Of a DNA stretch of 49,540 nt, positions 8,047 to 49,196 are shown one piece after another; the stretch's first letter is position 1; the number at the start of each line of letters is the position of its first letter. Below the pieces are notes generated by a model, which saw only the letters and a list, made by a program, of their open reading frames with translations, ran no database searches and was not told where the DNA came from. This stretch comes from Candidatus Zambryskibacteria bacterium RIFCSPLOWO2_02_FULL_39_26. Its GTDB lineage: Bacteria; Patescibacteriota; Minisyncoccia; Phycocordibacterales; DATDWN01. A program made the translations under genes and the position numbers. The stretch spans positions 1 to 49,540 of the forward strand of contig MHWN01000015.1 in the NCBI GenBank assembly GCA_001825395.1, read 5' to 3'.

Positions 8047-8373
8047 AAATCACTCGTAATCCAGTTTCCAAAGCACGGATAAATTTCTTCTGAAATTTTC
8101 CTCTCGCTCAGCAATCAAGCAATTAATCTCCTAGATACGTAGCCTTTTCGCAAACTCGCTTCGCTCAAACAGTGCTTCAGGCTTACTCTATCTTCGTTGT
8201 TAATTGCTAATTGCCTCCGCAGTCTCTGGAAACTGGATTACTCGTTTCAACGTAAAATCTCGTTGAGTTGTATTTTTTATAGTGTCTGCGGAGTGCATGA
8301 AGCATGAGCAGAAAGAAAATTTTGAGCACAAAATTATTCTGGTACTATAAAAAATATAACGAGAAAGAGATTT
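8047..8373 (-). ncRNA. structured element copy A (homologous to 43279-43577)
   Basis: 43-nt block 8305-8347 is 41/43 identical to the reverse complement of 43307-43349; stems 8271-8283/8344-8356 (13 bp), 8057-8070/8227-8240 (14 bp), 8119-8126/8200-8207, 8081-8087/8092-8098. Confidence 0.7.
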
Positions 8374-21796: not shown

Positions 21797-21836
21797 CATA
21801 CATTATAATGATGCTATAGCACTATTATAATGTATG
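21797..21836. repeat. near-palindromic repeat, copy 1 (flanks PaaX-like gene)
   Basis: CATACATTATAATGATGCTATAGCACTATTATAATGTATG; 36/40 identical to its own reverse complement; 39 nt identical to 22489-22527. Confidence 0.95.
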
Positions 21837-21861
21837 GATGGAAATAAATTTATCCCCAACT

Positions 21862-22428
21862 TTATTGTATATTAAAGTTATTCCTAAATTTTTTGTCATT
21901 TTCTATTGAATCCGCAATAATGTACAAAAGATCCTTCCCAACTCTGAAATCGACTTTTAACAAATTCACTAAGTCTTCGCAGGGATGGGGATAAATCCAA
22001 ACACTATCCTGCAATCTTAGGAAACCGATATTCATCAAAGTTAACCTAATCTTATTTCTTAAAGATTTTCTGCTTTCTGGTATATCAAATACCAACATCC
22101 TCCATTTTTTATCCCATTTTCTCGGCTTATCTATTTTCCAATCAGTCATTTCCAAAAACTCTAGTTTTGCTTCCCCTTTTTTTGTTAATTCTAAAAAACC
22201 ACTTCTGTTACTTAGTAATCCCTTATTTATCAGACGATTTTTAGAGGCATAAATTATCTCCTTTTGTCTTTTTCCAGGAATTATCCCAAGTGATTTTAGA
22301 TATCTAATAGAATTTGGAGCCAAAATAGCCAAACTTAAAAGGCCAGCGGTTTTTACAGATGTTAGAATAGCCTTTTGGATATTTTCTTTTCGTTTCCTTT
22401 TTCTTAATGAGTTTTCAATAATTCCCAT
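21862..22428 (-). CDS. PaaX-like / Cas2-fold HTH protein
   Basis: 188 aa; HTH-like region (IIYASKNRLINKGLLSNRSGFLELTKKGEAKLEFLEM), then KKWRMLVFDIPESRKSLRNKIRLTLMNIGFLRLQDSVWIYPHPCEDLVNLLKVDFRVGKDLLYIIADSIEND, Cas2/PaaX-C-like. Confidence 0.8.
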   Translation of the reverse strand: MGIIENSLRKRKRKENIQKAILTSVKTAGLLSLAILAPNSIRYLKSLGIIPGKRQKEIIYASKNRLINKGLLSNRSGFLELTKKGEAKLEFLEMTDWKIDKPRKWDKKWRMLVFDIPESRKSLRNKIRLTLMNIGFLRLQDSVWIYPHPCEDLVNLLKVDFRVGKDLLYIIADSIENDKKFRNNFNIQ

Positions 22429-22488: not shown

Positions 22489-22527
22489 ATACATTATAAT
22501 GATGCTATAGCACTATTATAATGTATG
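22489..22527. repeat. near-palindromic repeat, copy 2
   Basis: ATACATTATAATGATGCTATAGCACTATTATAATGTATG, identical to 21798-21836. Confidence 0.95.
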
Positions 22528-22545
22528 CGGCAATATAAAATTTTA

Positions 22546-31636: not shown

Positions 31637-31996
31637 ATGAAAGATTGTATTTTCTGCAAGATTGTTTCTGGAGAAATTCCCACTCATAAGGTTTATGAGG
31701 ACGAAAATTTCCTAGCTTTTTTGGATATTAATCCACAATCACCCGGACATACTCAAGTTATTCCGAAAAAACACTGCCGTTGGGTTTGGGATGTGCCGGA
31801 GGTTGGAGAGTACTTTGAAGTGGTGAGAAAAATAGCCAAGGCGGAGCAAAAAGCATTTGGCACTGATTGGATTTTATCTAGAATAATCGGTGATGAAATC
31901 CCTCACGCTCACATTTGGGTTTTTCCAAACGACAAAGTAAGTGGCGATAAAAAAGATTTCGCTGGTAATGCAGAGAAAATAAGAGGCTTTTTATAA
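31637..31996 (+). CDS. HIT-family hydrolase
   Basis: CIFCKIVSGEIPTHKVYEDENFLAFLDINPQSPGHTQVIPKKHCRWVWDVPE...IGDEIPHAHIWVFP. Confidence 0.95.
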   Translation: MKDCIFCKIVSGEIPTHKVYEDENFLAFLDINPQSPGHTQVIPKKHCRWVWDVPEVGEYFEVVRKIAKAEQKAFGTDWILSRIIGDEIPHAHIWVFPNDKVSGDKKDFAGNAEKIRGFL

Positions 31997-32112
31997 ATCT
32001 CGTTGACTGATGTTTTAAAGAGAGACTAGTGAGCGCGACGGCGCGAACTCAAGCAAAACTCTAGCAAGAATTTATGCGTGTCTCTTTGAAAAATATGAGG
32101 AAAAAGAGATTT
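31995..32112 (-). ncRNA. structured element copy C (core arm only)
   Basis: AAATCTCGTTGA...AAAGAGATTT boundaries shared with copy A core (8255-8373); same length (118 vs 119 nt) and same stem layout with diverged sequence. Confidence 0.55.
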
Positions 32113-39692: not shown

Positions 39693-39994
39693 AATACCCA
39701 CGAATGGGTGCCCACGAATTTTAACGAATAAATTCATTCGCAAGATTCGTATTTATTCATCTCTTGGTAATTCGTGGACTATTCGTGGGTTAATTGTACC
39801 AAAACTAGACTTTATTTACATGCATATTGTGTACAAGAAAATTTTTGTACGAAAAAAGCGGCCTAATGTGCACACATATTATTGCGGTTTCCCTTAAACT
39901 AGGAATAGTTTAAGTAAGGACTCCCCTTGCTTATTAAATGCTTATTAAAAAATAACCCTTAAAATAAAGGTATAATAGGAATTATAGACAACCT

Positions 39995-41870: not shown

Positions 41871-42013
41871 AGAATCCCCCGCGAATAATCCAAATTCTTA
41901 CGAATCATAACGAATAATTCATTCGCAAGATTTGTATGTGTTCATTCGTGGGTTAATTATATCAAAATATAATCCTACTGGCACTGTGATATGCACACTG
42001 CTGTAATACAAAG

Positions 42014-43247: not shown

Positions 43248-43278
43248 ACCTTATAAACTTGATGGGTTCTGTTTTATT

Positions 43279-43577
43279 AAAATCTCTTACTCATCATTAT
43301 TTTTTCTAGTACCAGAATAATTTTCTGCTAAAAATTTTCTTTCTGCTCACCTTTTCACAGGTTCCGCAGATACTAGGAAAAATACTGATTCGACGAGATT
43401 TTAATTCGCAATCTCGTTGAACCAAGCCTTTTGGAAGACCCCACAGACCTAAAGCATGGTTCCGTCAACGTCCCGAACGAAGTGAGGGCTCATTGACGGA
43501 TTTAGGTTGAGGACAAAGTTAAATTTTCACTGGAAAATTTAACGGTCTGGAAAAAGACTTGGTGAATAAGAGATTTT
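43279..43577 (+). ncRNA. structured element copy B between nusA and hppA
   Basis: Closing stem AAAATCTCTTA/TAAGAGATTTT; P2 43298-43311/43371-43384; CGACGAGATT/AATCTCGTTG; CCAAG...AGACC/GGTCT...CTTGG; ACCTAAA...TCCGTCAA/TTGACGGATTTAGGT; GTTAAATTTTC-actg-GAAAATTTAAC; U-rich 3' end. Confidence 0.75.
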
Positions 43578-43641
43578 TCTGAAATTGTAAAAAATGAAGA
43601 AATTAGCTATAGTAAGATTTATTAAATATTAATCAATAAAG

Positions 43642-46603: not shown

Positions 46604-47638
46604 TTATTTTTCTTCTGCTTCGCGGATTACATCCAAATCTGAAAGTTTTATAATCACATTTTGTAATTTATGAGCATTACCGTGTTTTAACATACCAAAA
46701 TAAGATCGAACGGACTCTGGTTTTAAATTGTTACTTAAATTCTTCAACATTCTCCTCTTAGTCGTTGTCCTCAAAACTCTGTGATGTGGAAAATTAACCC
46801 ATCCAAGAAAATCCACTCCAGAGGCGAGGGTTTTGATACTGATTTTATTTGGATGCAAATTGAGTTTCAGGTGATTCTCCAGAAATACTTTGATATATCG
46901 CAGTAAATTATTTAGTGTGGTTTTGTTTTGATCTAGGATTACAAAATCGTCAGCGTAACGAATGTAATATTTGACTTTCAGTCTGTGCTTTACATATTGG
47001 TCAAACTCATTCATGTAGATATTCACTAGAAGTTGAGAGGTGAGGTTGCCTAGTGGTAGCCCAATACACATATCAGTCATGACTGATATGTGTATTGGGG
47101 TGTGGAAGCTGTCTATTACTCTGTCGAGTAACCAGAGGGTGTCTTGGTCTAGCCTATTGTACTTGAGTATTTCTTTGAGAGTCTGGTGGTCGATGCTGGC
47201 AAAGAACTTCCTGACATCACACTTTAGTACCCAGCACTGTTTAGTGTTGTTTTGGGAGACTTTACAACTAAACTCTCTAAACCTATCCATTGCTCGGTGA
47301 GTTCCCTTCCATTTACGACAAGAGTAGGAGTCGTGGATGAACTTCTGGTCAAAGTATGGATACAAAACTCTATAGATCGCGTGGTGAAGCAATCTATCCC
47401 TAACACTGGCTTTGCTGATGTTGCGAGGTTTGGGGTCGGAAATGTTGAAGTGGGTATATCCGCCGTGGGTGTAGGATTTATCTAGTAAATCGGAATGTAA
47501 TTTATAAATATTTTCTGACAAATGTAGAGAAAACTCCAAAACATCTAGTTTTTGTTTTTTGCCTTTAATAAATTCATCCCAAGCTAAGAATAAATTTTCC
47601 ATAGATGATATTTCTTTGAAGAAGTCTTGTTTATTCAT
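46604..47638 (-). CDS. DGR-type reverse transcriptase
   Basis: LDKSYTHGGYTHFNISDPKPRNISKASVRDRLLHHAIYRVLYPYFDQKFIHDSYSCRKWKGTHRA; VLKCDVRKFFASIDHQTL; GLPLGNLTSQLLVNIYMNEFDQYVKH; YYIRYADDFVIL. Confidence 0.96.
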   Translation of the reverse strand: MNKQDFFKEISSMENLFLAWDEFIKGKKQKLDVLEFSLHLSENIYKLHSDLLDKSYTHGGYTHFNISDPKPRNISKASVRDRLLHHAIYRVLYPYFDQKFIHDSYSCRKWKGTHRAMDRFREFSCKVSQNNTKQCWVLKCDVRKFFASIDHQTLKEILKYNRLDQDTLWLLDRVIDSFHTPIHISVMTDMCIGLPLGNLTSQLLVNIYMNEFDQYVKHRLKVKYYIRYADDFVILDQNKTTLNNLLRYIKVFLENHLKLNLHPNKISIKTLASGVDFLGWVNFPHHRVLRTTTKRRMLKNLSNNLKPESVRSYFGMLKHGNAHKLQNVIIKLSDLDVIREAEEK

Positions 47639-47685
47639 GATAGAATATTCCTATTACACATAATTAGAACACAAAATGACAAATA

Positions 47686-48069
47686 ATGTTGCCCCCCCCC
47701 CGAGAAGCACCGAAGGTATTGTTAAAGGAGAAAGAAGTTTATAGATTTTGGATTAAACTTCACAGAGATTTTCCGAAAGTTGAGAGATTGGGCATTGGAA
47801 AAAAGATTGAGCAGAGTTTTTTAGACTTATTGGAACTGACTTTTACTTCAGTATATCTAGCTCCAGAGCAAAAAGTAGTGGTTTTAGGTAGAGCTATAGC
47901 AAAACTTGATAATCTAAAATTTTTTATGCAACTTGCTTGGGAAGCCCGACTCATACACACAGAAAACTATGCTATCATTTCAACAAACTTGGAAGAAATC
48001 GGTATGATGCTTTGGGGGTGGAGAAAGGGCTTGCAAGAAAAACTGCAACAAAAAACTCCCACAAAATAG
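47686..48069 (+). CDS. avd: DGR accessory protein, Avd-like four-helix bundle
   Basis: YRFWIKLHRDFPKVERLGIGKKIEQSFLDLLELTFTSVYLAPEQKVVVLGRAIAKLDNLKFFMQLAWEARLIHTENYAIISTNLEEIGMMLWGWRKGLQEK; adjacent to DGR RT and TR. Confidence 0.85.
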   Translation: MLPPPREAPKVLLKEKEVYRFWIKLHRDFPKVERLGIGKKIEQSFLDLLELTFTSVYLAPEQKVVVLGRAIAKLDNLKFFMQLAWEARLIHTENYAIISTNLEEIGMMLWGWRKGLQEKLQQKTPTK

Positions 48070-48078
48070 CTGTGGGAG
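48050..48078 (-). terminator. intrinsic terminator for TR transcript, overlapping avd stop codon
   Basis: Minus strand CTCCCACA-gctattt-TGTGGGAG followed by TTTTTTG. Confidence 0.7.
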
Positions 48079-48092
48079 AAAAACAATAGTTT

Positions 48093-48199
48093 CGGGAGAA
48101 CACCTGGTTGCCATCGTTCCACTCGTTCTCGTCCGTGGTCGGATTGGCGTTGAAGTTCCAACCACCATCGTTCCAGTAGACGTTCACGTTGCGAAGAAC
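48093..48199 (-). repeat. DGR template repeat (TR)
   Basis: 107-nt ungapped match to 48565-48671; 17 mismatches, all at TR minus-strand A. Confidence 0.97.
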
Positions 48200-48468
48200 G
48201 GATGTTTCGTACAAAAAACCATCCAGGACACCGTTCGCTAAAATATAACGAGCTGAATTTTATTCGGGACATATAAGTCCGCCAGTTTCTTGTACCAAGT
48301 TTTGTTATTTTTTGAAAAATATATAACCCACTCTTGTGTAAGACTTATCCAACACAACTCTCGAGATATACATCCTAAAACCATGACACGAAAGCCGTAA
48401 CCGTCGCGTAACACATAGCTTCAAATATATTATATCAAAAATTTTTGAAATATTTTTATATAAAAAAT

Positions 48469-48514
48469 GTGACCCTCTACTTTCTGCAGGATTGCAGAGA
48501 AAGCAAAGGGTCAC
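48469..48514 (-). terminator. intrinsic terminator / hairpin downstream of the VR
   Basis: GTGACCCT...AGGGTCAC with inner CTTTCTGC/GCAGAGAAAG; minus-strand U-run 48462-48467. Confidence 0.75.
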
Positions 48515-48551
48515 AGTGTCAGAGAGTCAAGGGGTCAGAAGGTCAAAGTAT

Positions 48552-49196
48552 CTAGGCGACCTTGCGGGAGAACACCTGGCCGCCACCGATCCACTCGCCC
48601 TCGCCCGTGGTCGGAAAGGCGTAGAAGTACCAACCACCATCGAACCAGAAGACGTACACGCGGCGAAGAACATCATCCTTGTCACAAACATAGAAGATGT
48701 TCGCCCAACCGTTGTTGAGCAGGACACCCGCTTCGCCGTTTGGTTGGAGAGAGGTCAGGTGGAAAATCTCCGCGAGAGAGGTTTCCGCCTTGCTGTCTCC
48801 ACCCAAGAAAGCGATGATGACCGCGTCCTTGGCGCGTTGGATGAGCTTGCCGTAGCCGATCCGCGATGGAGCAACATTCGTCTCGGTCTTGCCGAGAAAC
48901 CAGTTGCTGAAGTTCGAGCCGAAACCCGAAATCTTCACAGCGACTTCTGGCGAGGTGTTCTGAATGAACTTTTCCGAGGCGACGAAGTTCGTCACACCCG
49001 GGAAAGCCACCTCGCCGAGATTCTGGAGAAGCGACACCACGACCTTCCCATATCCACGAAGGATGGGAAGAATCTGGGCGACCATGTCTCCAGAAGAGAG
49101 GGACTTGATGTCGGCGTTGTTCCCGCCGTTCCTCTCCCACGCGTACTTCAGTTCCGCCGCTTGCACAACGTCGAGGCCGAACGTGTCATTTGACAT
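48552..49196 (-). CDS. DGR target protein with C-terminal variable region
   Basis: 214 aa; C-terminal VLRRVYVFWFDGGWYFYAFPTTGEGEWIGGGQVFSRKVA encoded by VR; SD AAAAGGAAC upstream of ATG. Confidence 0.92.
   Translation of the reverse strand: MSNDTFGLDVVQAAELKYAWERNGGNNADIKSLSSGDMVAQILPILRGYGKVVVSLLQNLGEVAFPGVTNFVASEKFIQNTSPEVAVKISGFGSNFSNWFLGKTETNVAPSRIGYGKLIQRAKDAVIIAFLGGDSKAETSLAEIFHLTSLQPNGEAGVLLNNGWANIFYVCDKDDVLRRVYVFWFDGGWYFYAFPTTGEGEWIGGGQVFSRKVA
48565..48671 (-). repeat. DGR variable repeat (VR)
   Basis: Pairs with TR at 48093-48199, adenine-specific differences, in the 3' end of the target gene. Confidence 0.97.

Follow-up and report, generated by a model that had tools for sequence, protein, structure and literature searches.

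Results

The window, as we call the whole stretch of 49,540 nucleotides analysed here, contains a noncoding gap (43248-43641) flanked by nusA and by the membrane H+-pyrophosphatase gene hppA. An earlier note on this DNA had read positions 43279-43577 as one structured RNA of ~300 nt, closed by a stem spanning ~290 nt. The strong folding of this noncoding gap was confirmed (299 nt, -105.3 kcal/mol, z -9.5, with 0 of 200 shuffled sequences equally low), and the individual stems of that description were all recovered in place. Since the segment folds far better than its shuffled versions, the observation is valid as a statement about folding. The single RNA was rejected: the segment consists of two adjacent elements in opposite orientation, one of type 1 on the minus strand (B1) and one of type 3 on the plus strand (B2, Table 1).

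Both elements carry the terminal boxes AAATCTCGTYGA...GAGATTT. Because these equal ends stand in opposite orientation, they pair across the gap, and what had been taken for a closing stem is this pairing between the termini of the two elements. Likewise, the hairpin CGACGAGATT/AATCTCGTTG is formed by the common ends where the two elements meet. The suggestion that the AAATCTC/GAGATTT boxes might act as a switch was rejected as well: in the types of this genome the boxes make up the stem that closes each element, and their pairing over the gap results only from the chance proximity of two elements. Single type-1 copies lie elsewhere in the same genome at C1:7772-7893, C14:5460-5580 and C25:8733-8854, and the ends AAATCTCGTYGA and GAGAAAGAGATTT are common to several of these single elements. 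Full-length single relatives of B2 with identical ends lie at C6:752-918 and C17:10617-10786. Each type is thus found alone elsewhere in the genome, and the unit is therefore ~118-198 nt long, not 300.

The elements have a common core, a three-way junction made of a variable stem P1, a hairpin P2 and a near-invariant hairpin P3 (AAATTTTCAGCAGAAAATT). The core of B1 matches our covariance model with 57.4 bits (E 1.4e-12); its fold has a z score of -5.8, and its folding strand is the minus strand, on which the folds are the more stable ones. B2 has a larger 5' domain than B1 and a P3-like hairpin (TTTTCACTGGAAAA), and its core matches the model weakly (10.3 bits, E 1.1).

Table 1. Structured elements and further features of the window
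Feature	Position	Strand	Remarks
Element A1	8047-8243 (approximate boundaries)	-	Covariance model 39.3 bits at 8065-8163 (minus)
Element A2, type 1	8255-8373	+	119 nt; covariance model 44.8 bits; fold z -7.7
Element C, type 2	31995-32112	+	118 nt; covariance model 40.0 bits
Element B1, type 1	43280-43401	-	122 nt; three-way-junction core 43303-43379
Element B2, type 3	43409-43577	+	~168 nt; ends as in B1
AT-rich repeats	1574-1637; 39715-39760; 41878-41945		With CGAATCATAACGAATAA...TTCATTCGCAAGATTTGTA
54-nt repeat, two copies	21798-21851; 22489-22542		87% identical; nearly palindromic (ATACATTATAATGATGCTATAGCACTATTATAATGTAT)
ORF flanked by the 54-nt repeat copies	21862-22428
Diversity-generating retroelement	46604-48671
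Reverse transcriptase	46604-47638	-	PF00078
bAvd-like ORF	47686-48069		Just under the Pfam cut-off
Template/variable repeat pair	48090-48199 / 48562-48671		110 bp

The relative of the gap that had been placed at 8047-8373 does exist as the plus-strand element A2, though not as part of one ~300-nt unit: this copy is built like the gap pair, with the minus-strand element A1 followed by the type-1 element A2. In A1 the P2 arm carries a long insertion, and P1 is formed by AATCCAGTTTCC/GGAAACTGGATT. When the type-1 sequence of this copy (8258-8373) was compared with its own genome, 11 matches were obtained, including 43280-43398 on the minus strand. Element C, taken before for the core alone, is indeed related but is a complete type-2 element; it lies between a HIT-domain gene and pgk, which are convergent, and has relatives in the same genome at C7:25488-25605 (92%) and C25:37269-37387 (77%).

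The window also holds repeats of other kinds. The AT-rich stretches with CGAATCATAACGAATAA...TTCATTCGCAAGATTTGTA are possibly another dispersed element or a common upstream sequence. In the diversity-generating retroelement, template and variable repeat differ by 18 mismatches, all at template adenines of the minus strand.

To describe the core we used a covariance model (R1) of 63 sequences with 12 pairs, comprising hairpins P2 and P3. The P3-closing pair, formed by the base before AAATTTTCAGCAGAAAATT and the base after the following AT, is C-G in 31 of these sequences, A-U in 12, G-C in 11, U-A in 8 and U-G in one, and it is unpaired in none. Over all 63 sequences 95.8% of the cells are paired, compared to 81.2% after shuffling and 33-64% when the sequences are slid. 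In a structure-blind mutual-information scan (MI-APC) of 39 gapless class-A sequences, the top ten column pairs were all Watson-Crick pairs of the fold, belonging to P1, P2 and the P3-closing stem. The sequence of P1 differs at nearly every locus with its pairing kept (Watson-Crick fraction 0.75-0.76 versus 0.36-0.37 in shuffled controls). These results confirm that paired positions covary between the copies. The P2 hairpin, which has an RNA/GA internal loop, is modular: it occurs either as a single hairpin or is replaced by longer multi-hairpin domains with GCAAGACCTT...AAGGTGTNCAG...CTGTAAG, a motif present in this genus and at two other loci. Between the elements at C17:10617 and C26:6402, P2 is exchanged while P1 and P3 are identical.

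In the P1 stems of class A, isolated G:U pairs outnumber A:C pairs on the sense strand by 40 to 8 (p 3e-6), and we therefore take this strand, as RNA or single-stranded DNA, to be the one that probably folds. The excess is absent from the arms of class B, the tRNA-linked subclass described below (9 versus 13), and from a permissive count of P1 over all elements (307 versus 323). Since this looser count shows no excess, the evidence for the folding strand is good but not conclusive.

The covariance model found many further homologues in related genomes, in support of the earlier proposal of a structured family. The window's own genome contains 22-23 core matches in 608 kb, and 17 elements of several types could be delimited by common ends. 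Within the same genus, family and order 47 of 61 genomes were positive, with up to 58 copies each; the remaining 14 had no element at E<=0.01. The densest genomes carry about one element per 15 kb. In a phylum-wide sample, 24 of 290 genomes were positive at E<=1e-5, and these belong to the same order and to scattered other families. A search for the exact P3 with its closing bases, using one genome per species, returned at least 120 contig stretches; among the 80 matches listed, the organism was from Paceibacteria/Parcubacteria lineages wherever the title names it (Nomura-, Taylor-, Kaiser-, Zambryski-, Uhrbacteria and others). The family is likely confined to Paceibacteria. IMG/VR does not contain the 21-nt P3 motif, and viral carriers were therefore rejected.

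The family does not belong to a named RNA class. A search of the whole window with Rfam 15 gave no match at the gathering score, and at E<=10 the segment 43279-43577 gave chance-level matches only, none of them credible; weak matches such as SECIS_5 were rejected as being at chance level and outside the core. For seven element loci the only Rfam matches above gathering were to tRNA. These repeats are undescribed in the papers covered by our literature search. They probably form a new family of dispersed structured repeats.

We compared orthologous sites with those of G002, a congener so diverged (~70-80% identity in the flanks) that insertion and deletion are indistinguishable at single sites. 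The elements at C25:10201 and C7:25511 have no counterpart at the orthologous sites in G002, and the element at C14:5483 is inverted in place. The gap orthologous to that of element C contains a type-3-like element instead, and the position of A1 is occupied by a different element. A2 is kept, with a P2 hairpin that is changed and still paired. Presence and absence, inversion in place, replacement of one type by another and the many copies together describe a dispersed, apparently mobile repeat rather than a gene-specific cis-regulator. Turnover, copy number and the existence of types that share their ends fit a mobile element.

The orientation of class A relative to the neighbouring genes is not consistently sense: in codirectional gaps of the window's own genome, as delimited with a simple ORF caller, copies are antisense in 10 cases and sense in 2. 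With orientation this inconsistent, a sense function in 3'UTRs was rejected for class A. By eye, no clear bias relative to the replication strand was apparent on the 680-kb contig of genome G042.

Class B has a longer P4 stem (GGGGTCGCGG...CCGTGACC) and follows tRNA genes closely on their 3' side, in the same orientation. Of the 46 elements on contig C7 of G042 (680 kb), about one third have a tRNA or tmRNA gene at most 250 nt upstream, always on the strand of the element, while the chance for a random position is 0.8%. The tmRNA gene likewise has an element behind it. Over the named contigs, the arrangement with an upstream tRNA on the same strand was counted in 32 pairs (~3 expected), and the other three arrangements in 5, 7 and 0 pairs (~3 expected each). 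The class-B core stands between two copies of this upstream tRNA's 3' end, one before it as reverse complement and one after it in direct orientation; the direct copy in several cases comprises exactly the last 19 nt. These duplications often begin 19 nt from the tRNA end, in the T loop, and often end with the tRNA. The tRNA concerned is matched better than 95% of other tRNAs by 16 of 29 direct copies and by 14 of 32 reverse-complement arms. Since the arm is a reverse complement of the T loop, we can reject the idea that P1 of class B arose by insertion into the loop of an existing hairpin. An apparent intrinsic terminator, as judged by eye, often stands between tRNA and element. In several genomes the same arrangement is found at the 3' end of rplK (named from its C-terminal codons), once in tandem.

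Two single loci deserve description. At L172:14-180, two units in tandem each combine a core with the end of an rplK-like gene and the reverse complement of that end. At L313:6922-7001 (C16 of the window's own genome), a class-B core is enclosed by an incomplete second copy of the beginning of tRNA-Ser, and an apparently intact tRNA-Ser gene follows closely downstream; this element is absent in G002.

No copy carries a gene. In the 608 kb of the genome, which is 93% complete, we found neither an ORF-bearing or autonomous version with both ends within 3 kb nor an autonomous relative with common terminal inverted repeats, as MITEs of a DDE transposon would have. Copy number correlates weakly with the number of reverse transcriptases (Spearman 0.32, p 0.012), and some high-copy genomes have no reverse transcriptase; a dependence on this enzyme is thus not convincing. 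In the comparison with G002, the sites of the window's own genome are too diverged to give exact junctions, and no clear target-site duplication emerged for class A. Inspection by eye showed flanking direct repeats of 8 bp at a few of the named loci.

Discussion

We favour, with moderate confidence, the interpretation that the two neighbouring elements of the nusA-hppA gap are members of a family of short mobile elements, non-autonomous and dispersed through Paceibacteria, and that recognition of these elements would depend on their conserved fold and not on long sequence. The main rival, distinctly less probable in our judgement, is a host noncoding RNA or 3'-trailer that has been duplicated and retained for a cellular function of the RNA, such as protein binding or the protection and processing of tRNA and mRNA 3' ends. 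Such a function could account for the strong covariation, for the excess of G:U pairs on one strand of class A, for the position behind tRNA and tmRNA genes, strictly on their strand, and for the element after rplK in several genomes. It is harder to reconcile with the many tRNA-linked copies that appear by eye to lie beyond the intrinsic terminator of the tRNA, with the prevalence of antisense class-A copies in codirectional gaps, with positions that are unstable between species and with the relatives in which the element is missing.

Among mobile elements, the duplications of tRNA 3' ends starting from the T loop, which often end with the tRNA, and the element behind tmRNA would suit an origin of class B as remains of tRNA-integrating elements that a tyrosine recombinase had moved, the 19-nt duplication being the att site. 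We consider this improbable, given that many different tRNAs and the rplK 3' end serve as sites, unlike one integrase paired with a single site, and that the core is also preceded by the site in inverted form. Slightly less probable still are REP/REPIN-type palindromes moved by an IS200-like (RAYT, Y1) transposase. The elements are indeed short, dispersed extragenic palindromes, and Y1 genes occur in 40 of the 61 related genomes. However, copy number is not correlated with Y1 transposases across these 61 genomes (Spearman 0.20, p 0.12), an element was found near only 1 of 30 Y1 loci, and Y1 genes are missing from genomes that carry 31, 27 and 17 copies. Mobilisation by RAYT/Y1 is therefore disfavoured.

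If the family is a mobile element recognised by its fold, its movement might proceed as follows. One of its strands, either RNA or, during replication, single-stranded DNA, would fold, and an enzyme provided in trans would recognise it by P3 and the junction. The element would then be joined beside hairpin-forming DNA, for example terminators or the T-arms of tRNA genes. In class B, this joining, or an accompanying template switch, may copy the neighbouring T-arm both back and forward, and the copied flanks would become the closing stem. The specific version of this idea, in which a new class of RNA- or single-strand-templated elements has its closing stem remade at each site and E. coli rtT is a distant example, is tentative, and we regard it as rather improbable. 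The stem would be remade by copying the adjacent T-arm of a tRNA, or the adjacent end of a gene, in both inverted and direct form; if true, insertion would in effect be targeted by structure and make use of the 3' ends of tRNAs.

Paceibacteria are ultra-small bacteria whose genomes are regarded as streamlined, yet most of the relatives tested carry these repeats. If mobile, the family would represent a minimal element that spreads by its fold rather than by its sequence; if functional, it would be an RNA of the whole class that accompanies many tRNA genes.

Several known systems invite comparison. MITEs and Rickettsia-type palindromic elements are ~120 nt long, have imperfect terminal inverted repeats and no ORF, and come in several subfamilies with common ends. 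The elements described here are also ~120 nt long, with imperfect terminal inverted repeats, without ORF and organised in subfamilies that share their ends. They differ from those in that the interior fold is kept by covariation across genera, whereas the sequence of P1 varies freely. The R'/R'' core boxes of integron attC sites were not seen in the elements by eye. With REP, REPIN and BIME sequences they have in common that they are short extragenic structured repeats, present in many copies, either singly or as inverted pairs. REP is a tagged single hairpin (cf. PMC3733652), whereas our elements form a three-way junction with an invariant A/T hairpin; also unlike REP/RAYT, they have no link to Y1 genes.

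The closest parallel to class B is provided by RtT (Rfam RF00391) from the E. coli tyrT/tyrV locus, where tandem units follow a tRNA and its last 19 nt recur. In E. coli rtT we found 19-nt repeats of tRNA-Tyr at offsets of 159, 337 and 515 nt after the tRNA (178-nt spacing). Among the elements described here, only class B repeats the preceding tRNA's 3' end in this way, with exactly 19 nt in several copies. At E<=1 the RF00391 model gave no match in any of the 41 related genomes searched, while it detected the E. coli control. The E. coli unit that we read has no AAATTTTCAGCAGAAAATT hairpin and, as far as seen here, is not dispersed over many loci. The E. coli unit, like class B, has a reverse-complement arm (GGGGAAGGAT) before the core, GAGAA follows this arm here and in some class-B copies, and the E. 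coli sequence folds as a multibranch structure closed by the arm and the copy. In the tRNA layout of class B, the puzzling repeats at the tRNA-Tyr genes of E. coli have a parallel that can be tested.
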